Assembly (NCBI RefSeq): GCF_020172665.1
Contig: NZ_CP083985.1
Coordinates: forward strand, 3,586,648-3,628,270
DNA length: 41,623 nucleotides
Direction: 5' to 3'
Source: [Mycobacterium] zoologicum
GTDB lineage: Bacteria; Actinomycetota; Actinomycetes; Mycobacteriales; Mycobacteriaceae
Shown: one piece after another, positions 22,814 through 40,338 of the stretch
Layout of the letters: each line of letters begins with the position of its first letter
Numbering within the stretch: position 1 is the first letter of the stretch
Notes under the pieces: model-generated
What the model saw: only the letters and a program-made list of their open reading frames with translations
Databases searched by the model: none
What the model was told of the DNA's origin: nothing
Made by a program: the position numbers and the translations under genes

Positions 22814-22815
22814 GG

Positions 22816-22911: not shown

Positions 22912-22937
22912 CACGGGGCCTCTCTCACGTTCAGGTT

Positions 22938-22953
22938 CGACAATCGAGTGTCG
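22938..22953. promoter_or_regulatory. Candidate MftR operator in the mftA-mftR gap
   Basis: CGACAATCGAGTGTCG is a 16-bp palindrome with a single mismatched pair, in the 102-bp divergent gap. The core ATCGAGTG recurs 41 bp away at 22984-22991, inside GGCA-TCGAG-TGCC (22981-22993). A -10-like TAGAAT (22973-22978) for mftR lies between the two. TetR repressors usually bind such sites in their own divergent promoter, so this is the best MftR candidate by position and symmetry. Confidence 0.55.
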
Positions 22954-23013
22954 TGGCGGTCACAATCTCGGATAGAATATGGCATCGAGTGCCGAAACGG
23001 AAGAGGGCTTCAT

Positions 23014-23610
23014 ATGGGCGGCATGCCGGGATCACAGCCCCGGGCCGGCCGTCGCCGCTCGACCACCCGAACCGACATCTCGGATGTGGCCATCGATCTG
23101 TTCGCCACCCGCGGGTTCGGCGACGTCAGCGTCGACGACGTCGCCCAGGCCGCGGGTATCGCCCGGCGCACCCTGTTCCGCTATTACGCCTCGAAGAACG
23201 CCATCCCGTGGGGTGATTTCGACGCACATCTGCGTCAGCTCGGCGAGCTGCTCGACGGCATCGATCCCGACGCCCCGATCGGTGACGCGTTACGCGAGGC
23301 ACTGTTGTCGTTCAACACCTTCGACGAGAGTGAGACAGCCCGGCACCGCCGCCGGATGCGGGTGATCCTGCAGACAGACGAGCTGCAGGCGTATTCCATG
23401 ACGATGTATGCGGGCTGGCGTGGCGTCATCGCGGAGTTCGTGGCGCGCCGCGCCGGCGCGCAACCTGGTGATCTACGCCCGCAGACGGTGGCCTGGATGA
23501 TGCTGGGCGTTGCGCTGAGCGCCTACGAGCGCTGGCTGGAAGACGAATCCCTGGAGCTGCCAACAGCTCTCGGCGAGGCGTTCGACACCATCCGCGGCGG
23601 CCTGGACTGA
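23014..23610 (+). CDS. mftR: MftR, TetR-family regulator of the mycofactocin locus
   Basis: A 198-residue TetR-family repressor. The start ATG at 23014 has AGAGGG 7-8 nt upstream; a longer open frame upstream is not protein-like. The helix-turn-helix spans about residues 20-63 ([40 protein letters not shown]). The C-terminal ligand domain runs to the end. The mycobacterial orthologue represses mft genes and has been reported to respond to long-chain acyl-CoAs. It is divergent from mftA and convergent with the F420 oxidoreductase, with 7 nt between the stops. Confidence 0.93.
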
Positions 23611-26087: not shown

Positions 26088-26108
26088 CTACCGATAGGGT
26101 TACGGTAC
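26088..26108. promoter_or_regulatory. Catabolic-block operator copy 1 (degenerate)
   Basis: CTACCGATAG-G-GTTACGGTAC matches the consensus YTACYGTAAN-C-ATTACRGTAR at the TAC-C/T-G and TTAC-R-GTA cores. It lies in the 92-bp divergent gap between the BVMO remnant operon (minus) and the Rieske operon (plus). It is the weakest copy by symmetry, supported mainly by position. Confidence 0.4.
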
Positions 26109-26140
26109 GGTATTCGGTTGGCACCCGTGAGAGGACGACG

Positions 26141-27151
26141 ATGAGAGTTCCGTTCACCTGGAAGGTCACCGGTTGGTTCATGATCGGCTGGTCGCCCGAG
26201 TTCGAGACGGGCAAGACCCGCGCCCTGCACTACTTCGGCGACGACATGGTCGCCTACCGGGGCGAATCCGGTGAGCTGCATGTGATGGAGGCCCACTGCA
26301 AGCACCTCGGCGCTCACCTCGGTCACGGCGGCAAGGTGGTCGAGGACCGCGTCGAGTGCCCGTTCCACGGCTGGCAGTGGGGGCCCGACGGCTGCAACAA
26401 GTTCATTCCATATCAGCCGGACCGGCCGAACAAGGCGCTGCGGCTTCGGGTGTACCCGGTACACGAGCAGCACGGCTGCGTGTTCATCTGGCATCACCCC
26501 GACGGCGCCGAACCGCAGTGGGACATGCCGGATATCTTCGGCAAGTTCCCGCAGTTCACCACCGGGCCGCAGGACTACTACCGGGCCTACCCGGAGTTCT
26601 CCCGGCGCCTGGAAGGGGAGCCGGTGCACCCCCAGATCGTCGCCGAGAACGCCGCGGACAGTTCGCATTTCCAGTATGTGCACCACGCCACGGTGACGCC
26701 ACGGGTTCTGGACTGGCAGATGGCCGACCGCGAGTGGCACTTCGTGGCCGGTTTTCCGGACGCCGACAGCGACGACCCCGATCAGATGGCCCTGCGCTTC
26801 CACTCGCATCTGTTCGGCCTCGGCGGGGCGATCAGCATCTTCGAGGGCGTGCAGCAGCATCGGTTGATATTCACCTGCACACCGGTCGACGAAGGACGCT
26901 CGGACCTGTTCTATTCGATCTGGTGGCCGCGGATTCCCGGCGACGACTCACAGGCCCCACCGGATCACATCCGGGAGCGGGTGGAGAAGCAGTTCCTGAC
27001 CACGGTGGAGGACGACCTGGGCATCTGGCGCTATCAGCGCTACATTGAGCATCCGGCTCTGGCCAAGACGGATGCGAAACCGTTTATGACGCTGCGGAAA
27101 TGGGCGACGCAGTTCTACGACGCACCGGCGGAAGAGACACTCGGCACGTGA
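26141..27151 (+). CDS. Rieske non-heme iron oxygenase (KshA-like)
   Basis: A 336-residue terminal oxygenase. The Rieske [2Fe-2S] ligands are C53-x-H55 (CKH) and C73-x2-H76 (CPFH). The C-terminal catalytic domain has the mononuclear iron motif ENAADSSHFQYVHH, with N170, D173, H176 and H181. The architecture is like the oxygenase subunit of 3-ketosteroid 9-alpha-hydroxylase, but the substrate cannot be assigned. It needs a reductase, which is not in the window. The ATG has GAGAGGAC upstream. It is the first gene of a three-gene plus operon, and its stop overlaps the next start by 4 nt (GTGA). Confidence 0.9.
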   Translation: MRVPFTWKVTGWFMIGWSPEFETGKTRALHYFGDDMVAYRGESGELHVMEAHCKHLGAHLGHGGKVVEDRVECPFHGWQWGPDGCNKFIPYQPDRPNKALRLRVYPVHEQHGCVFIWHHPDGAEPQWDMPDIFGKFPQFTTGPQDYYRAYPEFSRRLEGEPVHPQIVAENAADSSHFQYVHHATVTPRVLDWQMADREWHFVAGFPDADSDDPDQMALRFHSHLFGLGGAISIFEGVQQHRLIFTCTPVDEGRSDLFYSIWWPRIPGDDSQAPPDHIRERVEKQFLTTVEDDLGIWRYQRYIEHPALAKTDAKPFMTLRKWATQFYDAPAEETLGT

Positions 27152-27795
27152 CGCCGGCGGATCTGGTCGCGCCCGAACACACCGCGATCATCACCCAGGA
27201 ACTCCAGGGCGCCGTCGTCGGGCCCGAAGCCGGCCTTCCGATACTCGCCAACGCGGCCCGCGACCAGGCGCTGCCGAACATCAGCCGGCTGCTGCCGGTG
27301 GCCAGAGCCGCCGGGGTGCAGGTGGTGCACTGCATGGTGCACCGCCGCCCGGACGGCTTGGGCTCCAACCACAATGCGCGGCTGTTCGCCGCGGGGCGCC
27401 GCGCCGTGGACATCACCCCGGGCAGCCCCGGAGCAACCCTGCTGCCCGAGTTCGGGCCCGAGGCCGCCGACCTGGTGCTGAGCCGCTGTCACGGGGTGGG
27501 GCCGATGGGCGGCACCGACCTGAATGCGGTGCTGCGCAACCTCGGGGTGTCCACCGTTGTCGCCGTGGGGGTCTCACTGAACGTGGCCATCCCGAACCTG
27601 GTGATGGACGCGGTCAACGCCGGCTTTCAGGTGGTGCTGCCGCGTGATGCGGTGGCCGGTGTGCCAGCCGAGTACGGGGCTGCGATGATCGAGTACACCC
27701 TGTCCCTGTTGGCGACGATCACCACCACCGAGGAGCTGATGCAGACGTGGCGAGCCCGACCCAGTTCACCGTCCCCGACGTCTTCGACGCGGTAG
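27148..27795 (+). CDS. Isochorismatase-fold (cysteine hydrolase family) protein with degenerate triad
   Basis: A 215-residue protein starting at a GTG that overlaps the Rieske stop. The fold pattern is clear: HTAIITQELQG, the strand-helix RCHGVGPMGGTDLNAVLRNL, then GVSLNVAIPNLVMDAVNAGF. However, the usual Asp is E18, the usual Lys aligns with R113, and the nucleophilic Cys aligns with A147. Classical amidase/isochorismatase chemistry is therefore not expected. It may be a binding or scaffold protein, or use other chemistry. The last 16 residues are encoded within the fadD-like gene, whose start lies 49 nt before this stop. Confidence 0.8.
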   Translation: MTPADLVAPEHTAIITQELQGAVVGPEAGLPILANAARDQALPNISRLLPVARAAGVQVVHCMVHRRPDGLGSNHNARLFAAGRRAVDITPGSPGATLLPEFGPEAADLVLSRCHGVGPMGGTDLNAVLRNLGVSTVVAVGVSLNVAIPNLVMDAVNAGFQVVLPRDAVAGVPAEYGAAMIEYTLSLLATITTTEELMQTWRARPSSPSPTSSTR

Positions 27796-29396
27796 TCGAG
27801 GCGATCCCCGACCGCGACCTGGTGATCCAGGGCGATCAACGCTTCACCTACGCGCAGATCCGCGAACGCTCCAACCGGCTGGCGTCCTACCTAAATGCCC
27901 AAGGGCTGGGCGCGCACACCCCGCGGTCGGACCTGGCGGGCCACCAGAGCGGCCAGGATCTGCTGGGCGTCTACGCCTACAACGGCCACGAGTTCATCGA
28001 GACCCTGTTCGGTGCGTTCCGGGCCAGGGTGGCCCCGTTCAACGTCAACTACCGTTACGTGCGCAACGAATTGGCTTACCTGCTAGCCGATTCCGGTGCC
28101 ACCGCGCTGGTTTATCACGCCGCGTTCGCCCCCACCCTGGCCGAGGTGCTGCCCGACCTGCCGCAGCTGCGGGTGCTGATCCAGATCGCCGACGACTCCG
28201 GCAATCCCCTGCTCGACGGCGCCGTCGATTACGAGACGGCGCTGGCCGACAGCTCTCCGGAACCCCCGGCGGCGCAGCCGGACCCCGACGACCTCTACGT
28301 GCTCTACACCGGCGGCACCACCGGCATGCCCAAGGGCGTGCTCTGGCGTCAGCACGACATCTTCATGGGCTCCTTCGGCGGCCGCAACCTGATGACCGGC
28401 GACGCGGTCAGCTGCATCGACGACATCGTGGGCCCGGTCCGCGCCAACCCCGGCGTCAAGCTGATGATCCTGCCGCCCCTGATCCACGGTGCGGCGCAGT
28501 GGGCGGTGATGACGGCGATCAACACCGGCCAGACCCTGGTATTCCCTTCCGTCGTAGACCATTTCGACGCCGACGACGTGGTGCGCACCATCGAGCGCGA
28601 GAAGGTACTGTCGGTGACCGTGGTCGGCGATGCCATGACCCGACCGCTGATCGCGGCGATCCAGCAGGGCAGCGCCGACGTGTCGTCGCTGATGGTGGTG
28701 GCCAACGGCGGCGCGCTGCTCACGCCCTACGTCAAGCAGCAGGTGGTCGAGACGCTGCCCGGCGCCATGGTGATCGACGGAGTCGGCTCGTCGGAGACCG
28801 GCGCCCAGATGCGGCACATGTCGACCTCGGGAGCGGTGTCCACCGGCACCTTCGGCGCCGGGCCGGACACCTGCGTGGTGGCCGAGGACCTGAGCTCCGT
28901 GCTGCAGCCCGGGCACGACGGCCTGGGCTGGCTCGGGCAACGCGGCTGTGTTCCGTTGGGCTACAAGGGCGATGCCACCAAGACGGCCGGGACGTTCCCG
29001 GTGATCGACGGGGTTCGCTACGCCGTCCCGGGTGACCGGGCGCGCCATCTTCCCGACGGGTCGATCGAGTTGCTGGGCCGCGACTCGGTGACGATCAACT
29101 CCGGCGGGGAGAAGATCTTCGCCGAGGAGGTCGAGACCGCGATCGCCTCGCATCCGGGGGTGATCGACGTGGTGGTCGCCGGCCGGCCCAGCGAGCGCTG
29201 GGGGCAGGAGGTAGTGGCGGTGGTGTCGCTGGCCGACGGGGCGTCGGCCACCGCCGCCGAACTCATCGAGCACGCCGGCGGCTCGCTGGCCCGCTACAAG
29301 CTGCCCAAGGCGATCGTGTTCCGTCCGGCGATCGTGCGCAGCCCGGCCGGCAAGGCCGACTACCGGTGGGCGCGTGAACAGGCCGAGCAGGGCTAG
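27747..29396 (+). CDS. Acyl-CoA ligase (FadD family)
   Basis: A 549-residue ANL-superfamily acyl-CoA synthetase that activates a carboxylic acid through an acyl-adenylate to the CoA thioester. The start is GTG at 27747; the N-terminus FTVPDVFDAVVEAIPDRDLV is typical. Motifs are the AMP-binding P-loop YTGGTTGMPKG (187-197), DGVGSSETG, PGDRARHLPDGSIELLGRDS and the C-terminal GGEKIFAEEVE, with the late lysine in RSPAGKADYRW. It is translationally overlapped with the preceding gene and convergent with an aldehyde dehydrogenase (4-bp overlap). The substrate is probably the acid made by the block's oxygenases and dehydrogenases. Confidence 0.92.
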   Translation: MASPTQFTVPDVFDAVVEAIPDRDLVIQGDQRFTYAQIRERSNRLASYLNAQGLGAHTPRSDLAGHQSGQDLLGVYAYNGHEFIETLFGAFRARVAPFNVNYRYVRNELAYLLADSGATALVYHAAFAPTLAEVLPDLPQLRVLIQIADDSGNPLLDGAVDYETALADSSPEPPAAQPDPDDLYVLYTGGTTGMPKGVLWRQHDIFMGSFGGRNLMTGDAVSCIDDIVGPVRANPGVKLMILPPLIHGAAQWAVMTAINTGQTLVFPSVVDHFDADDVVRTIEREKVLSVTVVGDAMTRPLIAAIQQGSADVSSLMVVANGGALLTPYVKQQVVETLPGAMVIDGVGSSETGAQMRHMSTSGAVSTGTFGAGPDTCVVAEDLSSVLQPGHDGLGWLGQRGCVPLGYKGDATKTAGTFPVIDGVRYAVPGDRARHLPDGSIELLGRDSVTINSGGEKIFAEEVETAIASHPGVIDVVVAGRPSERWGQEVVAVVSLADGASATAAELIEHAGGSLARYKLPKAIVFRPAIVRSPAGKADYRWAREQAEQG

Positions 29397-30838
29397 CGTT
29401 TCTTCAGCCGCCGGCTCGTCCGCTTGCGCGCACGGCGCAGCATCATGTCGGTGTAGCGCCGCATCCCGGGCTTGAACGGCGGCGCGGCGGTTCCGGTCAG
29501 GCTGAACGGCAGGTCGGAGCCGACCACCGTCCGGTGGTGGCTGAACGCGTCGAAGCCCGCCTTGCCGTGGTAGGCGCCCATTCCGCTGCGCCCCACCCCG
29601 CCGAACGGCGCGGCGGCCGGGATCATTTGCGCGGCAAAGTCATTGCGGGCCACTCCACCGCTTCGGGTGCGGCGCACGAAGTCCCGGAAGTTCTTGCCGC
29701 CGGGCCCGAACCAATAGGCCACCAGCGGCGCCGGGCGGGCGTTGATCTGATCGATCGCCTCGTCGAGACTGCGATACGGCTGCACCGCCAGCACCGGTCC
29801 GAAGATCTCCTCCTCGGCGATGCGCATGCTCGCATCGACGTTGCGCACGATGGTCGGGGCGATCTTGCGAGTTCCGCGGTCCGGCAACACCTCCCCGTCG
29901 GGTGCGATGGCCTCCACTACCGCACCCCGTTCCCGTGCGTCGTCGATCAGGCTCAGCACCCGATCGAAGTTGGCCTCGTTGACACTGGAGCAGTAGTCGC
30001 CGTTGGCGACGATGGTCGGGAACATCTCCTGCAGCGTGGAGCGGGCGGTGTCGACGAACGCCTCCAGGTCGGGTTCGGGCACCAGAACGTAATCGGGGCA
30101 CACACAGACCTGGCCGCCGTTGACCATTCGGGCCGTGGCGATCCGTTTCGCCGAGCGTGCGATGTCGGCATCGGGCGCGACGACGACGGGGTTCTTACCG
30201 CCCAGTTCCAAGGTCACCGGCACCAGGTTGTCGGCCGCGGCGCGCTGCACCAGCGCGCCTACCGAGGGTGATCCGGTGAAGAACATGTGGTCGAACGGCA
30301 GTCCCGCGAACTCGGCCGCCACCGCGGCCCCGCCGGTGACGACGACGAGTTCGTCGTCGGCGAAGTAGGACGGCGCGAGTTGCTTCATCAATTCGCCGGT
30401 GTGCGCGGTGATCTCGGACATCTTGATCATCACCCGATTTCCCGCCGCGAACGCCGCCGCCGCCGGCACCACCACCAGCTGAAGCGGAAAGTTCCACGGG
30501 CCGATGATCCCGACCACGCCCAGTGGGCTGGGCTGGACCTCGGCCCGCAACCCGGCAAGTCGCGCCGTCCGCATCAGCTTCGGCGACCGCATCCATTGCC
30601 GGACATGGGATCTGGTGTGCTCGATCACCGGGATCATGCCGACCAGCTCGGTGGCCAGCGACGCATCCCGCGACCTGGTGCCGAAATCCTGCGCCATCGC
30701 GTCCACCAGGGCGTCGGTGTTATCCAGCACCAGAGCCACCAACCGGTCGATCCGGTTGCGCCGCAGGGCCGCATCGGGTGGCCCGTCGGCGACGAACGAC
30801 CGGCGCTGGGCCTCCAGCAGGTTGCGCAGGTCGGTCAC
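29393..30838 (-). CDS. Aldehyde dehydrogenase, coniferyl-aldehyde-dehydrogenase type
   Basis: This 481-residue class 3-like aldehyde dehydrogenase has VVGIIGPWNFPLQL, FFTGSPSVG, the general base in TLELGGKNP (E211) and the nucleophile in NGGQVCVCPDY (C245). The overall pattern, with DFGTRSRDASL near the N-terminus and a basic C-terminal tail (RRARKRTSRRLKKR), is closest to bacterial coniferyl-aldehyde dehydrogenases. The start GTG at 30838 overlaps the upstream stop by 4 nt. It is expected to oxidise an aldehyde to the acid used by the acyl-CoA ligase. Confidence 0.9.
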   Translation of the reverse strand: MTDLRNLLEAQRRSFVADGPPDAALRRNRIDRLVALVLDNTDALVDAMAQDFGTRSRDASLATELVGMIPVIEHTRSHVRQWMRSPKLMRTARLAGLRAEVQPSPLGVVGIIGPWNFPLQLVVVPAAAAFAAGNRVMIKMSEITAHTGELMKQLAPSYFADDELVVVTGGAAVAAEFAGLPFDHMFFTGSPSVGALVQRAAADNLVPVTLELGGKNPVVVAPDADIARSAKRIATARMVNGGQVCVCPDYVLVPEPDLEAFVDTARSTLQEMFPTIVANGDYCSSVNEANFDRVLSLIDDARERGAVVEAIAPDGEVLPDRGTRKIAPTIVRNVDASMRIAEEEIFGPVLAVQPYRSLDEAIDQINARPAPLVAYWFGPGGKNFRDFVRRTRSGGVARNDFAAQMIPAAAPFGGVGRSGMGAYHGKAGFDAFSHHRTVVGSDLPFSLTGTAAPPFKPGMRRYTDMMLRRARKRTSRRLKKR

Positions 30839-31653
30839 GACAGATCCAGCAGTCCGGTCTCGGCCACCGTACGCAGCTGGCCCAGCTCCACGCCCCGGTC
30901 CGCGGCCGCCTCGATACAGGCGGCCACATCCTTGCGCATGAACGGCGCAACGACATCGGCGAAGCTGTCCACTCCCCCGGCCGACCGCACGTATCCCGCG
31001 GCCCGGCTACCGCCGCTGCAGTGCTCCAGCACCGCGAACAGGCTGGCATCGGGGACGTCGAGGTTCTTCGCCAGCTCCACCGCGGCCGCAACCAGTTGCG
31101 CGTTGGAGGCGAACAGCACGTTGTTGATCAGTTTGAGGTTCAGTGCGGTGCCCAGGGCTCCGGTCGTGATCACCGGATCGGCGTAGGCGGTCAGCACCTC
31201 GCGGGCGCGGGCCACCGCGTCATCGGGGCCGCCGAGCAGCACGGTCAGCTTGCCCGCGGCGATGTCGTGGGCGCCGCCGCTGACCGGCGCGTCGACCAGC
31301 ACCGGCCCGTCGGGAAACGCCGTGATCAAGTCGGTCAGCGTGCTGACCGTGCCGGTGGTGTGCGACACCACGATCGCTCCGGGTTCGGCCGTGGCCATCA
31401 GCCCGTCGGGTCCGCCGGCGACCTCACGCAGCTGGGCGTCGGAGAACAGGCAGCTGATCACGATGCCGGCGCCGCGGGCGGCCGCGGCCACCGAGTCGAC
31501 CGCCACGGCGCCGAGGGCCGCCAACTGCTCGCGCACCTCGGCGCGGCGGGCGTACACCTGCACGCGGTACCCGGCGCCGAGCAGGCGGCGCACCATCGGC
31601 TCACCCATCTGGCCCGCCCCGATAAACCCGACGACCTGGCCCGTTGCGCTCAT
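30835..31653 (-). CDS. Beta-hydroxyacid dehydrogenase family NAD(P)-dependent oxidoreductase (MmsB-like)
   Basis: This 272-residue member of the 3-hydroxyisobutyrate dehydrogenase family has the Rossmann motif FIGAGQMGEPMVRRLL at the N-terminus, the substrate-binding segment VDAPVSGGAHDIAAGKLTV and the catalytic lysine helix in LNLKLINNVLFASN. It oxidises or reduces a beta-hydroxy acid or related compound; the exact substrate is unclear. It is first in a two-gene operon with the downstream aldehyde dehydrogenase and divergent from the SDR-P450 operon. Confidence 0.88.
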   Translation of the reverse strand: MSATGQVVGFIGAGQMGEPMVRRLLGAGYRVQVYARRAEVREQLAALGAVAVDSVAAAARGAGIVISCLFSDAQLREVAGGPDGLMATAEPGAIVVSHTTGTVSTLTDLITAFPDGPVLVDAPVSGGAHDIAAGKLTVLLGGPDDAVARAREVLTAYADPVITTGALGTALNLKLINNVLFASNAQLVAAAVELAKNLDVPDASLFAVLEHCSGGSRAAGYVRSAGGVDSFADVVAPFMRKDVAACIEAAADRGVELGQLRTVAETGLLDLS

Positions 31654-31738
31654 TCTCGGCTCCTCAAAGCGGCTTTCGGCTTTCCGGTGGTGGCAACCGT
31701 AGCATTGTCCACCGGAGCCGAATTAGTTACAGTCGAGC

Positions 31739-31759
31739 TTACTGTCGACTTTACGGCTA
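31739..31759. promoter_or_regulatory. Catabolic-block operator copy 2 (degenerate)
   Basis: TTACTGTCGA-C-TTTACGGCTA lies in the 126-bp divergent gap between the MmsB-like gene and the SDR gene. An additional half-site, TTACAGT (31727-31733), stands 12 bp upstream and forms an inverted pair with TTACTGT. The promoter may therefore hold overlapping sites. It is weaker than copies 3 and 5. Confidence 0.5.
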
Positions 31760-31779
31760 ACACCTGAAGGCTGGTGAGG

Positions 31780-32565
31780 ATGGGCAACTCGCAGCGCAAG
31801 GTGGTGATCGTCGGCGCCGGGTCGGGAATCGGCGCCGCGGCAGCCGCGCATTTCTACTCCCGCGGCGACCATGTGCTCGCCGTCGACGTGCGCCCGCAGC
31901 AGACACCCGCAACGCAACATGTCCGCTGCGACCTGCGCGACGCCGGGGCCATCGCCAAGTTCACCGGTGGGCTGGATGACGGCTGGGATCTGCTGGCCCA
32001 CGTCGCGGGCGTGCCCGGAACCGCGCCGGCCGCCGACGTGCTCACGATCAACTACCTGGGGATGCGCCTGATGACCGAGGGGATGCTGCCGCGGCTGCGC
32101 CGCGGCGGCGCCGTGGTCGCGGTGGCGTCTACGGCCGCGCTCGGCTGGGAGCAACGCATCGAGGCGCTCAACGGACTGCTCGACGCGGCCGACGCCGAGT
32201 CGGTGATGCGCTGGCAGGCCTGCCAGGACCCGGCGTTCCCGGTTTACACCACCTCCAAGCAGGCGATGATCCTCTACACCAAGCGACTGGCCGCGACGGC
32301 GCGGGCCCGCTACGGGGTGCGGATCAACACGGTGAGCCCGGGCCCGGTCGAGACGCCGATCCTGCCCGACTTCGAGGCCTCGATGGGCAAGCAGATGCTC
32401 GACTCCGTGCGCGACACCGTCGGTCGGCACGCCCGCGTCGACGACATCGTGCCGCTGATCGACTTCCTCGGCTCTCCGGCGGCCGGGTGGATCAACGGCC
32501 AGGACATTCTCGTCGACGGCGGTTTCGTCACCGCTATCACCGCCGGCACCCCCATCACCGTCTGA
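31780..32565 (+). CDS. Short-chain dehydrogenase/reductase (3-alpha-HSD / coniferyl-alcohol-dehydrogenase-like)
   Basis: A 261-residue classical SDR. The NAD site is GAGSGIG (12-18) and the catalytic set is S117, Y156 and K160 (YTTSK). The compact N-terminal half and the insertion LNGLLDAADAESVMRW between Ser and Tyr resemble 3-alpha-hydroxysteroid/carbonyl reductase and coniferyl-alcohol dehydrogenase subfamilies. It does not show the extended N-terminus of mycofactocin-coupled SDRs that I remember. The start ATG at 31780 has GAAGG 9 nt upstream; a GTG two codons earlier is less well placed. A P450 follows after 18 nt in the same operon. Confidence 0.88.
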   Translation: MGNSQRKVVIVGAGSGIGAAAAAHFYSRGDHVLAVDVRPQQTPATQHVRCDLRDAGAIAKFTGGLDDGWDLLAHVAGVPGTAPAADVLTINYLGMRLMTEGMLPRLRRGGAVVAVASTAALGWEQRIEALNGLLDAADAESVMRWQACQDPAFPVYTTSKQAMILYTKRLAATARARYGVRINTVSPGPVETPILPDFEASMGKQMLDSVRDTVGRHARVDDIVPLIDFLGSPAAGWINGQDILVDGGFVTAITAGTPITV

Positions 32566-32583
32566 GATCTGCGAGAGGACAAC

Positions 32584-33864
32584 ATGACCGTCGATTCATC
32601 TGCCAACGCACCGACATCACCACACCCGTATCACGACCTCGACATCTCCGAAACGGCCTTCTGGGGCAGGGATTTCCGAAGCCGCGATGACACGTTTGCG
32701 ACGCTGCGCAGCGAGCAGGGCCTGACCTGGCACCGGCCGATGCCCGCTGTCTTCCCCCACGAAGAGACCGGCTACTGGGCGGCGACCCGGCACGCCGACA
32801 TCAAGTTCATCAGTCAGCACGAAGAGCTGTTCTGCTCCAGCGAAGGGGTCAGCGTCGACCCGATGCCGGCCGAGATCCAGCGCAACATGACGTTCTTCCT
32901 GGCGATGGACCCCCCGGAGCACACCCGATACCGCAAGCTGATCAGCTCGGGCTTCACTCCGCGGCAGGTCCGTCGCATCGAGGACCAGATCAAGACCAAT
33001 TCCCGCAGCATCGTCGACGACTTGTTGGCGCAGCTGCGCGCCGGTGAGCAGATCGACTTCGTCGCAGCGTGTTCCGGGCAATTGCCGATGCGCACCATCT
33101 CCGACATGATCGGGATCGATCCCGCCGACCAGGAGAAGGTCGCCTACGCCGCCGAGTGCCTGTTCAGCGGCAGCGACGACGAGTACGCGTCCCTGGAGGA
33201 ACGGGCCGTGCACGTCATGACACAGCTGGGCGTACTGGCCGGCTCGGGCGTAGAGCTGGCGCAGCGCCGCCGCACCGAGCCGCACGACGATCTGATGACC
33301 GAGCTGGTCAACGCCGAGGTCGACGGACACCGGCTCACCGACGAGGAACTCGGCTCGTTCATGGTGCTGCTCGGTTCGGCGGGCAACGACACCACCAAAC
33401 AGACCACCACGCACGCCTTCAAGGCCCTGATCGAGCATCCCGAGCAACGCGCCTGGTTGCTGGCGGACTTCGACAACCGGATCGGCGGCGCGGTCGAGGA
33501 ATTCGTGCGCTGGGCGACGCCGGTGCTCGCCTTCGCCCGCCACGCGGTGGCGGACACCGAGGTCGCCGGAACCGAGATCAAGGCCGGGGACAAGATCGGC
33601 CTGTTCTACTGTTCGGCCAACCGCGACGAGACGGTGTTCGACCGGCCGCACGAATTCGACATCACCCGGACCACCAACCCGCACCTGGGATTCGGCGGCG
33701 GCGGTGCCCACTACTGCCTGGGGACCCATGTCGCCCGGATGGAGCTGCGGCATCTGTTCTACGAGCTGCTGACCCGGCTTCCGGAGGTCTCACTCGGCGA
33801 GCCGGATTACCTGCAGAGCACCTTCGTGCACGGCATCAAGCGGCTGCCGATCAGTCTCGCCTGA
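32584..33864 (+). CDS. Cytochrome P450 (second of three; CYP124/125-like heme loop)
   Basis: A 426-residue P450. The I-helix motif is AGNDTT, the K-helix is EEFVRW, and the heme loop FGGGGAHYCLGTHVARMEL has C378. The FGGGGAHxC form of the loop is shared with the mycobacterial lipid and sterol side-chain hydroxylases CYP124/CYP125, which hints at a hydrophobic branched substrate; this is an inference. The start ATG follows GAGAGGACAAC. It is in one operon with the SDR, and a perfect 21-bp palindrome follows 26 bp after its stop. Confidence 0.93.
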   Translation: MTVDSSANAPTSPHPYHDLDISETAFWGRDFRSRDDTFATLRSEQGLTWHRPMPAVFPHEETGYWAATRHADIKFISQHEELFCSSEGVSVDPMPAEIQRNMTFFLAMDPPEHTRYRKLISSGFTPRQVRRIEDQIKTNSRSIVDDLLAQLRAGEQIDFVAACSGQLPMRTISDMIGIDPADQEKVAYAAECLFSGSDDEYASLEERAVHVMTQLGVLAGSGVELAQRRRTEPHDDLMTELVNAEVDGHRLTDEELGSFMVLLGSAGNDTTKQTTTHAFKALIEHPEQRAWLLADFDNRIGGAVEEFVRWATPVLAFARHAVADTEVAGTEIKAGDKIGLFYCSANRDETVFDRPHEFDITRTTNPHLGFGGGGAHYCLGTHVARMELRHLFYELLTRLPEVSLGEPDYLQSTFVHGIKRLPISLA

Positions 33865-33890
33865 CCCTGGCGCTACGACTGCCCCATCAT

Positions 33891-33911
33891 TTACTGTAAT
33901 CATTACAGTAA
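33891..33911. promoter_or_regulatory. Catabolic-block operator copy 3 (perfect 21-bp palindrome)
   Basis: The arms TTACTGTAAT (33891-33900) and ATTACAGTAA (33902-33911) are exactly complementary around a central C. The site lies in the 75-bp gap between two same-strand P450 genes, so the downstream P450 probably has its own regulated promoter. It is the best-conserved member of the set and the reference for the consensus. Confidence 0.85.
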
Positions 33912-33939
33912 CTCACTCCGCACAGACGGGAGACCAGCC

Positions 33940-35154
33940 GTGGAGAGTCAGGTCGACGACGTCGCCGCCGCGCTCGACAAGCCGGCCGGCTACATCCGCA
34001 ACCCGTATCCGTACTTCGAGGACAAGCGCCGACAAGCCGGGATCGCTCCTGGGACGGTCATGGACTACTCGAAGACCCCTGAATCGCTGCGACCGAAGAC
34101 ATCATTCGCCGCCGTCTCGTTCGAGGCGGTCAATCAGGTTTTCCGCGAGGCGGATTCGTTCAACTCGCGCATATACGACATGACGATCGGACTGTTCCTC
34201 GGGCCGACCATCCTGGCGATGGAGGGCGAGCCGCACCGCAAGCACCGCAACCTGGTCTCCTCAGCGTTCAAGCGGAAGTCGCTGGCGCACTGGGAGCCCG
34301 CAGTGGTGCGGCCGGTGTGCACCGCGCTGATCGACGAGTTCATCGAAGCCGGCACCGCCGATCTGGTGGCCGATTTCACCTTCGAGTTCCCCACCCGGGT
34401 CATCTCCAAGTTGTTGGGCCTGCCCGAGGAGGACCTGGCCTGGTTCCGTCAGCGAGCGATGGAGTTGATCAGCTACACGGTCGACTTCGAGCGGGCGTTC
34501 ACCGCGTCGACGCAGCTGAAGGACTACTTCCTGGCCCAGATGGACAAGCGCAAGGCGCACCCCACGGAAGACATCATCGGCGACCTGGTCACCGCGGAGG
34601 TCGACGGCGAGAAGCTCACCGACGAGGCGATCTATTCGTTTCTCCGGCTGCTGCTTCCGGCCGGGCTGGAGACCACCTATCGGGCCACCGGCAACCTGCT
34701 GTATCTGCTGCTGACACATCCCGAACAGTTCGCCGCGGTACGCGCCGACCACGATCTGATCGGCGCCGCCATCGAAGAGGGACTGCGGTATGAGACTCCG
34801 CTGACCACCGTGCAGCGCACCGCCATCCGCGACACCACCGTCGCCGGAGTCTCGATTCCCGCCGGCGCGGTGGTCGACGTCTGTATCGGTTCGGCCAACC
34901 GCGACGAGACACGCTGGGAGCGCCCCGAGGAGTTCGACATCTTCCGCAAGTGGATCCCGCACATCACGTTCGCCGCCGGCGAGCACACCTGCATGGGCCT
35001 GCACCTGGCCCGGATGGAGATGCGGGTGGCGATGGAATGCCTGCTGGACCGGCTCGGCGAGATCGCGTTGATCACCGACGACGACCCGCACATCTACGGC
35101 CAGCCGTTCCGCTCACCGCGCCGGCTTCCGGTGACGTTCTCCGCCAAGGGCTGA
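33940..35154 (+). CDS. Cytochrome P450 (third of three)
   Basis: A 404-residue P450. The start is GTG at 33940, with GGGAGA about 8 nt upstream. The I-helix is PAGLETT with Glu in the acid position. The K-helix is EEGLRY, and the heme loop FAAGEHTCMGLHLARMEM has C351. The loop FAAGEHTC differs from the other two P450s of the window, so it belongs to another family and is not a tandem duplicate. It is transcribed on its own between the palindrome at 33891 and a convergent aldehyde dehydrogenase whose stop is 3 nt away. The substrate is unknown. Confidence 0.92.
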   Translation: MESQVDDVAAALDKPAGYIRNPYPYFEDKRRQAGIAPGTVMDYSKTPESLRPKTSFAAVSFEAVNQVFREADSFNSRIYDMTIGLFLGPTILAMEGEPHRKHRNLVSSAFKRKSLAHWEPAVVRPVCTALIDEFIEAGTADLVADFTFEFPTRVISKLLGLPEEDLAWFRQRAMELISYTVDFERAFTASTQLKDYFLAQMDKRKAHPTEDIIGDLVTAEVDGEKLTDEAIYSFLRLLLPAGLETTYRATGNLLYLLLTHPEQFAAVRADHDLIGAAIEEGLRYETPLTTVQRTAIRDTTVAGVSIPAGAVVDVCIGSANRDETRWERPEEFDIFRKWIPHITFAAGEHTCMGLHLARMEMRVAMECLLDRLGEIALITDDDPHIYGQPFRSPRRLPVTFSAKG

Positions 35155-35157
35155 CCC

Positions 35158-36696
35158 TCACCCCTGGCGCGGCCGGCGGTGTCCGATCGTCTTGGTCTCC
35201 AGGTACTGCGAGAACCCCTCGATCCCGCACTGCCTGCCCACGCCGCTGCTCTTGAAGCCACCGAACGGGGCGTCCGCTCCGTAGTACATGCCGCCGTTGA
35301 CCCCGATCGCGCCGGTGCGAACCCGGCGGGCGATCGCCATCGCGCGTTCGGCCGACGCCGACACCACCGCACCGGCCAGACCGAACGGACTGTCGTTGGC
35401 GATACGCACCGCGTCGTCGTCATCGGTGAACGGCATGATCACCAGCACCGGACCGAACACCTCTTCGCGTGCGATGGCCGCGTTGTTGTCGACGTTGACG
35501 ATCACGGTGGGCGCCATGTAGTGACCGCCCGCCAGGTGGTCGGGCAGTGCGTCGAATGATCCCCCGCCCGTGGTGATCTCGGCTCCGTCGGCGGCGGCCT
35601 GCGCGCAGGCGGCGACCACCCGCTGCTTGGCCTGGGCGCTGATCAGCGGACCGACCAGGGTCTGCGGCAACGCCGGGTCGCCGACCGTCACCGCCGCGAA
35701 CGCCGCGGTCACCGCGGCGACCATCTCGTCGAACAGCGAGGCGTGCACCAGCATTCGTGAGGTGGCCGCGCAGGCCTGCCCGGCGTGCACACAGACCCCG
35801 ACCGCGCCGGGGATGACCTTGGCCGGGTCGGCGTCGTCCAACACGATCAGCGCCGACTTGCCGCCCAGTTCCAAGAAGGTGCGTTTCATCGTGTCGGCGC
35901 CGGCCCGGGTCAGCAGCTTGCCGACGGCGGTGGACCCGGTGAACGACACCATGTCCACCCGCGGATCGGTGCCCAACACCGCTGCGACGTCGTTGGATTC
36001 GGTGGCCACCACGTTGACCACCCCGGCGGGGATGTCCGTTCGTTCGGCGATCAGCCGCCCCAGCCGGGTGGCGTTCCACGGGGTGTGCGGGTCGGGTTTG
36101 AGCACCACGGTATTGCCGGCGGCCAGCGCCGGCCCCAGCTTGTTCAGGATCACTTCGATGGGGAAGTTGGACGGGGTGATCGCCGCGACCACACCGACCG
36201 GCTCCTTGACAACGGTGCGGACGTTGCGGTCGCCGAACACTCCGCCGCCGTCAAGCGTGCGCTCCCATTCGAACTCGTCGATCAGCCGTGCGGGGTACCG
36301 CAGCCCGTCGACCAGCGGCCAATCCAGTTGTGCCAGCTGGGTTGTCATCACTGGACAGCCGACTTCGGCGATCAGCTCGGTGCGCAGCTCCTCCTGCTCG
36401 GACTCCAGCGCCGCCTGCAGCTGCTCCAGACAGCGCCTGCGCAGCGCGCGGTTGGTCGACCAGTCGGTGTCGTCGAAGGCGCGCCGGGCGGCACCGATCG
36501 CGCGGTCCATGTCGGCGCCATCGGCATTGGCGGTGGCGCCCAGGATTCGGCCGGTCGCCGGGCTGACGTTGTCGAACTGCGCGCCGGCGCCGGCATGCAC
36601 CAGTTCGCCGTCGATCAGCAAGCGCGTTTCTGCGTTGCCGGCGGCCCGTTCGCCGATATCCACGCTGGTGATGGCTTGTGCCACGACGTCGGTCAC
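35158..36696 (-). CDS. Aldehyde dehydrogenase
   Basis: This 512-residue NAD(P)-dependent aldehyde dehydrogenase has ITPSNFPIEVILNK (the substrate/cofactor floor), SFTGSTAVGK, the base in FLELGGKS (E276) and the nucleophile in HAGQACAATSRM (C309). The C-terminal GADAPFGGFKSSGVGRQCG is typical. The start codon is GTG at 36696, with GAGGGG about 8 nt upstream. It is a single-gene unit divergent from the CoA-transferase, across a gap holding operator copy 4. It is distinct in subfamily from the aldehyde dehydrogenase at 29393. Confidence 0.92.
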   Translation of the reverse strand: MTDVVAQAITSVDIGERAAGNAETRLLIDGELVHAGAGAQFDNVSPATGRILGATANADGADMDRAIGAARRAFDDTDWSTNRALRRRCLEQLQAALESEQEELRTELIAEVGCPVMTTQLAQLDWPLVDGLRYPARLIDEFEWERTLDGGGVFGDRNVRTVVKEPVGVVAAITPSNFPIEVILNKLGPALAAGNTVVLKPDPHTPWNATRLGRLIAERTDIPAGVVNVVATESNDVAAVLGTDPRVDMVSFTGSTAVGKLLTRAGADTMKRTFLELGGKSALIVLDDADPAKVIPGAVGVCVHAGQACAATSRMLVHASLFDEMVAAVTAAFAAVTVGDPALPQTLVGPLISAQAKQRVVAACAQAAADGAEITTGGGSFDALPDHLAGGHYMAPTVIVNVDNNAAIAREEVFGPVLVIMPFTDDDDAVRIANDSPFGLAGAVVSASAERAMAIARRVRTGAIGVNGGMYYGADAPFGGFKSSGVGRQCGIEGFSQYLETKTIGHRRPRQG

Positions 36697-36721
36697 CGGG
36701 ATCCCCTCGATTTCGGATGCC

Positions 36722-36742
36722 CAACCGTAACCATTACAGTAG
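36722..36742. promoter_or_regulatory. Catabolic-block operator copy 4
   Basis: CAACCGTAAC-C-ATTACAGTAG lies in the 100-bp divergent gap between the aldehyde dehydrogenase and the CoA-transferase. The right half is identical to the perfect palindrome for nine of ten bases, while the left half is degenerate. A -10-like TAGAAT directly follows on the plus strand (36741-36746), so binding would cover the promoter. Confidence 0.75.
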
Positions 36743-36796
36743 AATACTTCAATTGGTTCTCAGTCGGTTCGCACGCCCGAGCAGGAGCGCACTGAA

Positions 36797-38023
36797 TTGA
36801 TCAAGGTCATGGACGGCTTCCGGGTGCTGGAGGTCGCGCAGTACACGTTCGTCCCCGCCGCCGGCGCCATCCTGGCCGACTGGGGCGCCGACGTCATCAA
36901 GGTCGAACACCCGGTGCGCGGCGACACCCAGCGCGGATTCATCCGAATGGGCGGGTTCGAACTCGACCCCGACCGGCACCCCCTGATCGAGCATCCCAAC
37001 CGCGGCAAGCGCAGCGTCGGAATCGACGTGTCCACACCCGGCGGCCAGCAGGTGCTGCACGAGTTGGCCGCCACCGCAGACGTTTTCTTGACCAACTACC
37101 TGCCGCGAGCCCGGCGCAAGAACCGCTTCGACTTGGCCGACATTCGTGCGGTGAACCCGAACATCATCTACGCGCGCGGCAGCGCCTACGGCGACAAGGG
37201 CCCACAACGCGACATCGGCGGCTTCGACGGCACCGCATTCTGGACCCGCAGCGGGGTCGGCCACGCGCTGAGCCCCGAAGAGCTCGGAGCACCCATCTCC
37301 CAAGGCATCCCGGCCTTCGGCGACTCGATCGGCGGGATGAACATCGCCGGGGGGATCGCCGCGGCGCTGCTGCATCGCGAGCGCACCGGGGAGGCGCTGG
37401 AAGTCGACGTCTCGCTGCTGTCCACGGCGTGGTGGGCGGCCGGCGCCAGCGTGACGCAGGGCATGGAGACCGGCGAGGCCATGCGGGCACCGATGCCACA
37501 GTCCGGTGGCTCACCGGCGAATCCGTTTCTGGGTAACTACACCACCTCCGACGGCGGCACCATCAACCTGTGCATCGTCAGCCCGACCGGCTACATCCGG
37601 GATACCTTCGAGCACTTGGGTATCGGCGAGGCCGCCGATGACCCGCGCTTCGCCGACGTGCTGCCGCTGATGCAGAACGCCGAGGCTGCCAGCGACCTGA
37701 TCGTGGCCGCTGTCGCCGCCAAGCCCTTCGCCTATTGGCGCGAGCACCTCAAGACGATGAAGGGCCAGTGGGCGCCGTTCCAGAGCCTGGTCGACCTGGG
37801 CTCCGACGAGCAGGCCCTGGCCAACGACATGATCGCCGAGGTCGAGGCGGCCGATGGCGGGCATCCTTTCAAGGTGGTGCGCGGCCCGGTCCAGTTCAAC
37901 GGTGAGCCGTTGCAGACCACCCGCGCCCCGCAGGCCTCCGAGCACACCGAGACGGTGCTGCTGGAGCTCGGAATCGAATGGGACCGCATCGAAAAGCTCA
38001 AGGAATCAGGCGATATCGCCTAG
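36797..38023 (+). CDS. Class III CoA-transferase (CaiB/BaiF family)
   Basis: A 408-residue CoA-transferase that moves CoA between carboxylic acids. The start is TTG at 36797, with AGGAG 9 nt upstream; ATG 36809 would have no site at a useful distance. Family features are GFRVLEVAQYTFVPAAGAIL, DWGADVIKVEHP, GIDVSTPGGQ and the catalytic aspartate D176 in AFGDSIGGM. It is probably used to activate or recycle an acid intermediate. It is convergent with the thioesterase, with 4 bp of overlap. Confidence 0.92.
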   Translation: MIKVMDGFRVLEVAQYTFVPAAGAILADWGADVIKVEHPVRGDTQRGFIRMGGFELDPDRHPLIEHPNRGKRSVGIDVSTPGGQQVLHELAATADVFLTNYLPRARRKNRFDLADIRAVNPNIIYARGSAYGDKGPQRDIGGFDGTAFWTRSGVGHALSPEELGAPISQGIPAFGDSIGGMNIAGGIAAALLHRERTGEALEVDVSLLSTAWWAAGASVTQGMETGEAMRAPMPQSGGSPANPFLGNYTTSDGGTINLCIVSPTGYIRDTFEHLGIGEAADDPRFADVLPLMQNAEAASDLIVAAVAAKPFAYWREHLKTMKGQWAPFQSLVDLGSDEQALANDMIAEVEAADGGHPFKVVRGPVQFNGEPLQTTRAPQASEHTETVLLELGIEWDRIEKLKESGDIA

Positions 38024-38829
38024 CTTTCCCGCGAGGTCTCCCCGCCGTATTTGCGTTCGGCGTCGAAGTTGAAGTTCGCGATGGCGGTCGACATACCGGC
38101 ACCGATCGGACCCAGCGTGTCGTACAGGCTTGCGCTTCCGGTCGCCACGCCTGCGTCGCTGTAGTGGGTCAGCGCCGCCAGCCCGATGTACTCCCCAACC
38201 GGAAGCCGGCTCAGGGTCAGGGTGTAGTCGGCGTTGATAAAGGCCAGTCCTTTGGTGCTGAAATTGGTCAGCGAGGCGGTGACGTCGACGGCCATCGCCG
38301 CGCGTACGAACGGCGTGAGCTCCTCGCCGTCCACGAGGTCACGTATCTCGCGCAGCCAGGCGTATCGCGGTCCGGCATGCTGCCACGGGAATGTGTTGCC
38401 ACCGTCGTCGCCGTAGGCCCGGATGAACATCGGCACCGACTCGTCGGGCGACGCCGGTTCTTCCGGGAGCGGCGGCAGGCTGACCTCGGTGGTGAAGAAG
38501 TCACCGTCGGGCTGGGGGCCGCGGCGCAGGTACAGCGCCGAGGCACGAGCGACCAGATCGCCGTCCTGGGTCATCTCGGCGTCGATGGAGCGCATCCGCG
38601 AACCGGAGCGGACCACCGACGCGCTGACCCGCAGCGGTGCACCGGCCACCCGGCGCAGGATCTCGACGGTCAGCCGTGCCGGCTGCAGGTCGTCTTCGGG
38701 CACGTGCTGCTCGACGGCACGGGCCAGCAGGCCGCCGACCACCTGACCGCCGAGCGTCGGCCCCCATCCGCCGTGGGCGATGGGGTTCGGCACCAGGTCG
38801 TCGTCACGGCGAACCACGAACGGGATCAT
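38020..38829 (-). CDS. Acyl-CoA thioesterase, TesB-like double hotdog
   Basis: A 269-residue protein with two hotdog-like halves. The first has PIAHGGWGPTLGGQVVGGLLARAVEQ and the second, acyl-CoA thioesterase-like half begins about TSLTNFSTKGLAFINADYTL. It hydrolyses acyl-CoAs; the chain length is unknown. The start ATG at 38829 has GGAG about 8 nt upstream and overlaps the preceding stop by 4 nt (ATGA). The upstream in-frame extension to 38898 lies inside the preceding gene and was not used. Confidence 0.85.
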   Translation of the reverse strand: MIPFVVRRDDDLVPNPIAHGGWGPTLGGQVVGGLLARAVEQHVPEDDLQPARLTVEILRRVAGAPLRVSASVVRSGSRMRSIDAEMTQDGDLVARASALYLRRGPQPDGDFFTTEVSLPPLPEEPASPDESVPMFIRAYGDDGGNTFPWQHAGPRYAWLREIRDLVDGEELTPFVRAAMAVDVTASLTNFSTKGLAFINADYTLTLSRLPVGEYIGLAALTHYSDAGVATGSASLYDTLGPIGAGMSTAIANFNFDAERKYGGETSRES

Positions 38830-39839
38830 GTCTTGCTCCGCTCCAGGTAGAACCGCGCGGCACGGCGGATCGAGTGTTCGGTCGGTTCCGGGTGCCAATC
38901 CAGTTCCCGGGTGGCCTTGCCGTGGGAAGCGGGAGACGTCAACGCCATGAGTCGCGCACCCGTTGCGGTGAACGCGAAGTCACGACGCAGCAGCACCCCC
39001 AGCGCGCCGACGAGGTGTCCCACCATGTGCAGAATCGCCATCGGAATACCAAAGCGCGGCGGCGGGGCCCCGACCGATTCGGCTGCGACGGTGAGCATCT
39101 CGCGCTGAGTCATGTACCGCTCGGAGATGATGTAGCGCTCGCCAATCCTGCCGCGCTCGGCGGCCAGCAGCATCCCCCTGGCGGCGTCGTCGATTCCGAC
39201 CACCTCGGAGCCCACGCCGCGCGCGTAGGCCGGCATCCTGCCCAGCGCGGCAAGCTGAACGAGCGTGCCTTGCCGCGGCTGCCAGTCCGGCGGACCGTAC
39301 GGATTCGACACGTTCGTGACGACGGCCGACAGGCCACGATCGGCGGCGTAGGACAGCACCAGGCGCTCGGCTTCGCGACGGGAGGCGATGTAACCCCCGC
39401 CCTGGTCGGCCCAGTTGAACGGGGTGTCTTCGTCGACTGTTTCACCGTTGCGTCCCACCGCGATGGTGCCGATGGTGCTCAGGAACACGAACCGGTCGAG
39501 GCCGGCCGGCGCGGCGACTTCCAAGACGTTGCGCAGACCTTCGACGTTGGTTCGAAACAGTGGTGCGGGATCGCGCAGTTCCGCTCGGGTGTCGACGACG
39601 CAGTAGTACACGACGTCCCGGTCTGCCATGGCCGCGGCGACCGCATCGGTGTCGAAGATGTCGCCGTAGTGCCGTTGCACGTCGAGTCCGTCGATCCCTC
39701 TGGTGGAACTGGAGCGACGCAGCAGCACGCGCACGTCGTCGCCGCGTGCGACCAGGTGGCGGGTGACGCAGCCGCCGACGTTGCCGCTGGCACCCATGAC
39801 GAGTGCGCGCCGGCGCTCGGCCGCCGATCCATCGTTCAT
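38826..39839 (-). CDS. NAD-dependent epimerase/dehydratase (extended SDR) with YxxxR
   Basis: A 337-residue extended SDR. The start ATG at 39839 has TAGGACG upstream; TTG 39863 (eight residues longer) is an alternative. The Rossmann motif is GASGNVGG, the strand with the catalytic Ser/Thr is FVFLSTIGTIAVG, and the active-site motif is YIASRREAERL. Y150 is kept, but the canonical Lys is R154. The general layout resembles 3-beta-hydroxysteroid dehydrogenase/epimerase proteins. It heads a two-gene minus operon with the thioesterase, divergent from the DUF35-thiolase pair. Confidence 0.85.
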   Translation of the reverse strand: MNDGSAAERRRALVMGASGNVGGCVTRHLVARGDDVRVLLRRSSSTRGIDGLDVQRHYGDIFDTDAVAAAMADRDVVYYCVVDTRAELRDPAPLFRTNVEGLRNVLEVAAPAGLDRFVFLSTIGTIAVGRNGETVDEDTPFNWADQGGGYIASRREAERLVLSYAADRGLSAVVTNVSNPYGPPDWQPRQGTLVQLAALGRMPAYARGVGSEVVGIDDAARGMLLAAERGRIGERYIISERYMTQREMLTVAAESVGAPPPRFGIPMAILHMVGHLVGALGVLLRRDFAFTATGARLMALTSPASHGKATRELDWHPEPTEHSIRRAARFYLERSKT

Positions 39840-39879
39840 CGTCCTACCCGGGTCCCTGGTCAACTCGCGCTATCGTACA

Positions 39880-39900
39880 TTACTGTAAGCATTACAGTTA
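39880..39900. promoter_or_regulatory. Catabolic-block operator copy 5
   Basis: TTACTGTAAG-C-ATTACAGTTA is a near-perfect palindrome with two mismatched pairs. It lies in the divergent gap between the epimerase-like gene and the DUF35 gene. It ends 24 nt before the DUF35 ATG and begins 41 nt before the epimerase ATG, close enough to cover both promoters. Confidence 0.8.
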
Positions 39901-39924: not shown

Positions 39925-40338
39925 ATGCAGAAGCCGCTTGCCCCCGACATCTCGACCTGGCCGGAGGCGGACCCGCAGTTGGTCGGCAGTCACTGCGCGG
40001 GCTGCGACGCCACGGTGTTTCCGGCCCAGCCGCGCTGCCCGGCCTGCAGCGGCGACCAGATGAGCCGGGCACTGCTGCCGCGCACCGGCACCCTGGTGGC
40101 CTGGACCACCCAGGGGTTTCCGCCCGGCCCACCGTATCTGGGTCCGGCCGGCAAGGAGTTCGTGCCGTTCGGCGTCGGCCTGGTGCAGCTCGGCGACGTC
40201 GTCCGGGTCGAAGGCCGGCTCACCGAAAGTGACCCGGACAAACTGCAATTCGGCATGCCGGTGGCGTTGACCATGATCCCGTTCGCCTCCGACGCCGATG
40301 GCAACGAGATCATCACCTTCGCCTTCCAACCGGTTTAG
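39925..40338 (+). CDS. Zn-ribbon/OB-fold (DUF35) acyl-CoA-binding partner protein
   Basis: A 137-residue two-domain protein. The N-terminal rubredoxin-like zinc ribbon is C24-x2-C27 and C38-x2-C41. The OB-fold follows from about GTLVAWTTQG to FAFQPV. DUF35 proteins form obligate complexes with thiolase-fold lipid-transfer proteins, for instance in steroid side-chain retro-aldol cleavage. Here a thiolase-fold gene begins 9 nt downstream, as expected of such a pair. The start ATG has GCGGAGG 4 nt upstream. Confidence 0.92.
   Translation: MQKPLAPDISTWPEADPQLVGSHCAGCDATVFPAQPRCPACSGDQMSRALLPRTGTLVAWTTQGFPPGPPYLGPAGKEFVPFGVGLVQLGDVVRVEGRLTESDPDKLQFGMPVALTMIPFASDADGNEIITFAFQPV

Follow-up and report, generated by a model that had tools for sequence, protein, structure and literature searches.

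According to the available text on BkaR (Rv2506/MSMEG_4718), a dimer of this mycobacterial TetR protein binds a conserved palindrome in its own promoter and in those of its targets (PMC3920632), and a second TetR-linked palindrome, motif X, marks a regulon that the accessible part of another study assigns to the orthologue of Rv0767c (PMC6593523). A survey of mycobacterial TetRs gives its motifs, in the parts available, as figures only (PMC4482099). The present analysis concerns a window of 41,623 nucleotides from [Mycobacterium] zoologicum (NZ_CP083985.1, positions 3,586,648 to 3,628,270; positions on the contig are written C1), in which a 21-bp palindrome recurs in the intergenic gaps of a block of catabolic genes. 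We consider it very probable that the gene at C1:3650162-3650914 encodes an autoregulated TetR-family repressor that has this palindrome as its operator and would control the block and further operons. The computed basis is site conservation, promoter placement, a site at the regulator's own promoter, synteny, co-occurrence, and an invariant recognition helix. No description of this operator or regulon was found in the open-access literature searched, a scope that left subscription journals mostly outside and logos in figures unread, and to this extent the regulon can still be called undescribed, as an earlier note on this DNA had done.

Palindromes in the promoter gaps of the block

The earlier note had placed five palindromes in the gaps that can carry promoters between 26049 and 39924. 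All five 21-mers are present at these coordinates, and our own open reading frame (ORF) map yields the same five gaps, with 14 to ~85 bp between putative operator and start codon. The strongest candidate operator, at 33891-33911 upstream of the second cytochrome P450 gene (cypB), is a perfect palindrome, TTACTGTAAT around a central C, then ATTACAGTAA, and reaches a matrix score of 40.2. Further putative operators occupy the gap between the divergent genes aldh2 (-) and caiB (+) at 36722-36742 (score 26.6) and the gap between the gene of the epimerase-type short-chain dehydrogenase (SDR; -) and the DUF35 gene (+) at 39880-39900 (score 36.2). In the hyd(-)/Rieske(+) gap, a weak operator at 26088-26108 is overlapped by a second copy at 26100-26120, giving three half-sites at 12-bp spacing with scores of 6.4 and 7.0. 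The hibdh(-)/sdr(+) gap holds a weak variant at 31727-31759, first noted as 31739-31759, in which the elements TTACAGT, TTACTGT, and TTACGGC follow one another in tandem with a 12-bp period (score 5.7).

The consensus originally given was YTACYGTAAN-C-ATTACRGTAR; the presumed operator is better described as TACTGTAA-N3-TTACAGTA, that is, as 9-bp elements at a spacing of 12 bp, of which there are sometimes three. The half-site TTACNGTAA is itself near-palindromic, and the pair can also be read as direct repeats at a distance of 12 bp. Of 300 sites, 39 have a third half-site at offset -12 exactly and 26 have one at +24, as against at most 7 at each of the other 99 offsets, in a count that may register one triple twice. 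A third in-phase element accompanies about one site in ten. Within the window, this three-element phasing is seen at 26088-26120 and 31727-31759.

Searched with at most three mismatches, the earlier consensus matched the window at 33891, 36722, and 39880, each on both strands, and gave no match in 100 dinucleotide shuffles; the degenerate sites at 26088 and 31739 were not matched at this threshold. A wider consensus, again with up to three mismatches, was run against all 4,425,202 bp of the genome (a single contig) and matched six places, namely the five sites and C1:3650081. They cluster strikingly, all between C1:3612735 and C1:3650101 (within 38 kb). Because the reversed control pattern gave 8 places under the same conditions, the three-mismatch sites (26088, 31739) are not significant from the pattern alone. 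The core TACTGTAA-N3-TTACAGTA with up to two mismatches occurs at four places in the genome, with none for the control; these are 33891, 36722, 39880, and the unlinked C1:833775, 2.8 Mb away.

A symmetric matrix was trained on 61 unique sites from named loci outside Mycolicibacter, which had been gathered by allowing up to three mismatches to the consensus TTACTGTAA-N3-TTACAGTAA, and was used to scan 81,352 bp of this genome, the window and the next 40 kb. All of the top nine matches score above 5; six belong to the five sites already described, 26088 being matched twice at a distance of 12 bp, and three lie past the end of the window, at C1:3650081 (19.6, the candidate regulator's own site), C1:3647594 (14.1), and C1:3653702 (13.1). 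Outside the five gaps, the best score in the window is -7.1; the earlier note had noticed nothing alike there. A first-order Markov sequence of 4.5 Mb contained 4 matches scoring at least 5 and none scoring at least 10, and at gap composition 60 matches of at least 5 were obtained per 900 kb, a rate at which the five gaps, 447 bp in total, would hold about 0.03. Position and conservation are the main support for the sites at 26088 and 31739, both of which are weak. The copies at C1:3647594 (L085:19595-19615) and C1:3653702 (L086:5703-5723) were found in the promoter gaps of crotonase-type operons; in two relatives, a stronger site of the form TTACTGTATACCTTTC was seen near the TetR gene (L133 350, L137 395).

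The unlinked site, C1:833775-833793 (L161), has a score of 25.8; its gap is bordered on one side by an acyl-CoA carboxylase carboxyltransferase-like gene and on the other by an APH/ecdysteroid-kinase-like (phosphotransferase-like) gene. The letters of the site are identical in the relatives G187 and G275, and it could belong to the regulon as an unlinked, ninth candidate promoter.

Conservation was assessed at the promoters of orthologues with at least 60% identity whose match starts within 25 residues of the start, all others being dropped. Scores were counted within 160 bp upstream, and the counts include the window itself, where the gene is present, and the loci that gave training sites. 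A score of at least 10 was found at 52 of 55 cypB promoters, 34 of 35 for aldh2, 18 of 30 for caiB, all 26 for epim, and 22 of 26 for duf35. The Rieske promoters reach this level in 35/40 cases and a score of at least 5 in 40/40. At the sdr promoters, with their weaker variant, 17/24 score at least 5 and 3/24 at least 10, as against 0.4% of letter shuffles, and 7/15 hibdh promoters, on the other side of the same gap, score at least 5. Operon-internal genes rarely show a site scoring at least 10 (isoch 0/35, tesB 0/10, cyp268 0/16, LLM 0/4, fadD 2/44, ltp 6/40). For aldh1, 9/40 promoters do so, perhaps where hibdh is absent and aldh1 borders the shared gap. Across 45 mycobacterial loci, none of 164 sites scoring at least 13 falls within mapped genes, which make up 64% of the sequence.

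Within the genus, 12 of 15 genomes contain the exact core; none of 186 genomes from the rest of the family does, and the reversed control gave no match. The motif is kept at orthologous promoters across mycobacteria, a check that the earlier note had proposed, and has a weaker, degenerate form in Nocardia. At one of nine Nocardia loci (L054), no site was found at cypB with up to four mismatches, and in a Rhodococcus locus (L058), cypB is present, but neither the motif (up to four mismatches) nor a TetR of the group described below was found in the stretch examined. The closest named relatives of cypB are in Mycolicibacter-group loci (87-91% identity).

The -10 consensus is TANNNT, and each half of the palindrome contains it. 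Together with the distances to the start codons given above, this is in line with a reading in which the TetR is an activator, or in which the palindrome is also a promoter element whose TACTGT/TACAGT halves act as -10-like boxes on both strands. We regard this as quite unlikely, as a -10 box is far less constrained than a symmetric 21-bp site with a near-invariant TACTGTA, and such sites are rare in the genome; in addition, TetR proteins are often repressors according to the available text of the survey (PMC4482099). The function we favor for the palindrome is that of a repressor operator.

The candidate regulator and its distribution

The earlier note had proposed looking for the same site upstream of a regulator gene. 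Such a site exists at L086:2082-2102 (C1:3650081). It precedes by ~60 bp, measured to the predicted start, the TetR gene C1:3650162-3650914 (L086:2163-2915), which lies 21.9 kb past the window end. Of the unlinked or off-window regulator once envisaged, the off-window part fits this candidate and the unlinked part does not. The protein matches PF00440 (TetR_N helix-turn-helix, 50.3 bits, cut-off 24) and PF02909 (TetR_C_1, ligand-binding C-terminal domain, 42.2 bits, cut-off 21), and no other protein of this genome is a close homologue of the TetR found behind cypB in Mycolicibacterium (235.9 bits for the candidate, 36.7 for the runner-up).

TetRs of this group are encoded directly 3' of cypB in 13 of 45 mycobacterial loci (L023-L027, L029, L030, L032-L034, L036-L038) and 0.8-3.1 kb behind cypB in all nine Nocardia loci. 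Identity to the TetR of this genome is 50-54% for the mycobacterial proteins beside cypB and 62-69% for those of Nocardia. Of the 30 best-matching TetR loci from 159 genomes, our genome included, 29 have a site scoring at least 10 upstream of the TetR gene, often of the form TTACTATAGG-x-CTTACAGTAG. All 17 TetRs aligned, drawn from three groups, share an unchanged segment VGVTSIYWYFR, which is expected to be the recognition helix. The homologues carry only the name TetR/AcrR family regulator. Synteny, the own-promoter site, and co-occurrence argue for the TetR half of the earlier proposal of a TetR- or GntR-type dimeric repressor; nothing was found that requires a GntR regulator, the annotated genes of the block being enzymes, although no GntR search was made.

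A second TetR protein, MftR, is encoded within the window itself (ORF 22429-23610), near the block and in the adjacent mycofactocin cluster. Its footprinted operator, T-N2-GGCA-N5-TGCC-N2-A in the available text (PMC8728441), is unlike TACTGTAA. No site at the mft genes is among the 30 best matrix matches, and the MftR of the window and those of relatives fall outside the BLAST group of the candidate TetR. There is very little chance that MftR is the regulator, a conclusion that the earlier note had also reached, and it was rejected given that the block sites read TACTGTAA-N3-TTACAGTA and not GGCA-N5-TGCC.

Co-occurrence was examined in 198 genomes of the genus, with cut-offs of E<=1e-40 for the TetR, up to two mismatches for the motif, and E<=1e-145 for true cypB. 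The TetR was detected in 159 genomes and the motif in 144. The motif is present in 139 of the 159 genomes with the TetR vs 5 of the 39 without it (Fisher p 5e-19; neither this value nor the co-occurrence takes account of shared ancestry), in a cross-table compiled by hand, for which 19 unlisted TetR-less genomes were taken to be those left over. True cypB occurs in 121 genomes, and all 121 also have the TetR and the motif; without G372, whose cypB is borderline at 59% identity, the figure is 120/120. Eighteen genomes with only a cypB paralogue (1e-131 to 1e-137) were set apart. Among the 77 genomes without true cypB, 23 have the motif.

The same sample bears on an IclR protein whose gene (L085:7953-8849; C1:3635955-3636848) is part of the downstream cluster. 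This gene is linked to the block in this genome, and IclR proteins bind palindromes. That it regulates the block is nonetheless hardly credible: at E<=1e-40 it occurs in only 49 of the 198 genomes; of the 121 that have both true cypB and the motif, a hand count gives only 36 with it, the other 85 lacking it at this cut-off; and its gene is without any of the 30 best matrix matches in the 81 kb. The distribution in 49/198 genomes led us to reject it. Close IclR orthologues (>70% identity) were seen in 10 of the 198 genomes, this one included.

Several observations, besides the shared ancestry already mentioned, weigh against assigning the palindrome to the TetR at C1:3650162-3650914. Its own site is asymmetric, 32 of the 45 mycobacterial loci have no TetR of this group in the stretch examined, and one of the 30 TetR loci (L131) lacks a convincing upstream site. 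Twenty of the 159 TetR-bearing genomes have no motif at up to two mismatches; true cypB is missing from all of them, and in seven the TetR match is no more than weak (E 1e-41 to 1e-63). In 18 genomes, motif and TetR occur together in the absence of true cypB, and the motif occurs in 5 of the 39 TetR-less genomes, roughly as often as the control pattern does there. It is also conceivable that a nearby TetR is co-inherited with the block and does not bind it. The training sites of the matrix are not independent of the consensus, as they were collected with it. Finally, the motif is not confined to the cluster, given the strong and unlinked C1:833775, and distant places are also present in some relatives, for example G217 and G230 (up to two mismatches).

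Taken together, the findings most likely point to an autoregulated TetR repressor of a catabolic regulon with at least eight promoters in this genome, three of them beyond the window edge. The single regulon of the earlier note is borne out in its one conserved operator, and its extent appears larger, with at least eight promoters and the candidate at C1:833775. Binding, repression rather than activation, the effector, and the substrate are inferred. A TetR dimer would bind TACTGTAA-N3-TTACAGTA over the promoters and block the divergent catabolic operons, the adjoining operons past the window end, and the gene that encodes it, until it is released by a pathway intermediate, probably an acyl-CoA or a polycyclic/terpenoid compound.

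By hand count, at least 40 of the 159 TetR-bearing genomes encode two or more TetRs of this group, and in the three genomes that were looked at (G052, G147, G197), one lies behind cypB and another 18-21 kb further. A more tentative reading, to which we give somewhat less than an even chance, is that the operators are not plain dimer sites and form a modular array of 9-bp near-palindromes (TTACNGTAA) with a strict 12-bp period, shared by two paralogous TetRs with the same helix, which would allow graded, cooperative control in many mycobacteria. One paralogue would be that behind the P450 gene and the other that ~18-21 kb on, with its asymmetric own site; this genome would keep only the second.

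Genes of the block and beyond

The block includes a Rieske oxygenase with a KshA-type C-terminal domain (26141-27151, +; Pfam Rieske, KshA_C), whose nearest solved structures are 3-ketosteroid 9alpha-hydroxylases. It is followed by an isochorismatase-fold hydrolase (27100-27795, +; Pfam Isochorismatase) and an acyl-CoA synthetase of the FadD type (27747-29396, +; NCBIfam PRK07798, 729 bits, cut-off 543). On the minus strand are an aldehyde dehydrogenase, aldh1 (29393-30838; Pfam Aldedh), and a 3-hydroxyisobutyrate-dehydrogenase-like oxidoreductase, hibdh (30835-31653; Pfam NAD_binding_2). A short-chain dehydrogenase, sdr (31774-32565, +), matches NCBIfam PRK12428 with 238 bits, just below the cut-off of 242, and precedes a P450 of the CYP268/CYP124 group (32584-33864, +), whose best solved structure is CYP268A2 (6bld, 448 bits). 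In the CYP268 literature searched, as far as its text was available, no substrate was found named.

The second P450 gene, cypB (33940-35154, +; Pfam p450, synteny), lies directly behind the perfect palindrome. The aldehyde dehydrogenase aldh2 (35158-36696, -) is related to Rv0768 but is not its equivalog (TIGR04284, 616 bits, cut-off 775). Next come a family III CoA-transferase of the CaiB type (36797-38023, +; Pfam CoA_transf_3), an acyl-CoA thioesterase-like protein, tesB (38020-38898, -; Pfam 4HBT_3, 4HBT_3C), and an extended SDR/epimerase, epim (38826-39863, -; Pfam Epimerase; TIGR03466 219 bits, below the cut-off of 368). A further pair consists of an OB-fold/zinc-ribbon partner (DUF35, ChsH2 C-terminal type; 39925-40338, +; Pfam OB_ChsH2_C, zf-ChsH2) and a thiolase-fold protein of the lipid-transfer type, ltp (40348-41496, +; Pfam Thiolase domains). 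The nearest solved structures of the latter are a benzoylsuccinyl-CoA thiolase subunit (7pxp), an SCP2-thiolase (6hsj), and a lipid-transfer protein (6ok1), and it is likely a thiolase or retro-aldolase. No efflux pump is among the annotated neighbours.

Beyond the window, C1:3628-3668 kb (L085, L086) extends the catabolic region with amidohydrolase-2, crotonase, SDR, FadD, and thiolase genes, and, by eye, acyl-CoA dehydrogenases. Judged by these families, the block probably degrades lipid- or terpene-like compounds; block and downstream genes would fit the breakdown, step by step, of the side chain and rings of a branched lipid, a terpenoid, or a steroid-like compound. The proposed regulon brings poorly annotated oxygenase, dehydrogenase, and thiolase genes together under one candidate repressor. 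If, as expected, the effector is an intermediate of the pathway, screening one purified protein for ligands would offer a direct handle on the substrate of the block.

Comparison with described TetR systems

By sequence, the nearest solved structures of the candidate are those of the tetracycline repressor TetR class A/D (5mru, 8e-17), with which it shares the TetR_C_1 domain; the similarity is weak (65 bits), and the tetracycline repressor has another operator. The KstR/KstR2 regulons of sterol degradation include P450, Rieske oxygenase, FadD, and Ltp-type enzymes, and their operators are probably different from that of the block. Like the proposed system, these are large TetR regulons of ring-compound catabolism, in part after the available text of the motif X study (PMC6593523). 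MftR is likewise a TetR protein, with neighbouring genes, and is described as acyl-CoA-responsive in the accessible text (PMC8728441); it differs in its C-terminal domain, TetR_C_14 vs the TetR_C_1 of the candidate.

The system of Rv0767c/G155_05115 also pairs a TetR protein with a palindrome at P450 and dehydrogenase operons, 14 operons in all, as far as the available text goes (PMC6593523). Its phytosterol-induced regulon takes in P450, aldehyde and alcohol dehydrogenase, and SDR genes (PMC6593523), a composition that would suit control of the block by an Rv0767c-type TetR. However, the best homologue of Rv0768 in this genome (3842325-3843761) has its own divergent TetR at 3844018, and the gap at this locus (L157, C1:3842325-3844155) shows, by eye, GGACA-N2-TGTCC-like palindromes, possibly the Rv0767c operator, and not TACTGTAA. 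This locus scores at most -3.3 with the matrix. Motif X itself is published as a figure, and the comparison was made with the gap beside the Rv0768 homologue. We attach next to no probability to the Rv0767c orthologue as regulator of the block and set it aside because the gap palindrome differs by eye; the TetR at C1:3650162-3650914 is the candidate we retain.

BkaR resembles this candidate as an autoregulated mycobacterial TetR repressor of a catabolic cluster; unlike it, in the available text, BkaR has the core GTTA(N)T(N4)A(N)TAAC and controls branched-chain keto-acid genes (PMC3920632). By eye, the block sites do not fit that core. The proposed regulon is most likely comparable to those of KstR and BkaR, with a predicted operator of its own.

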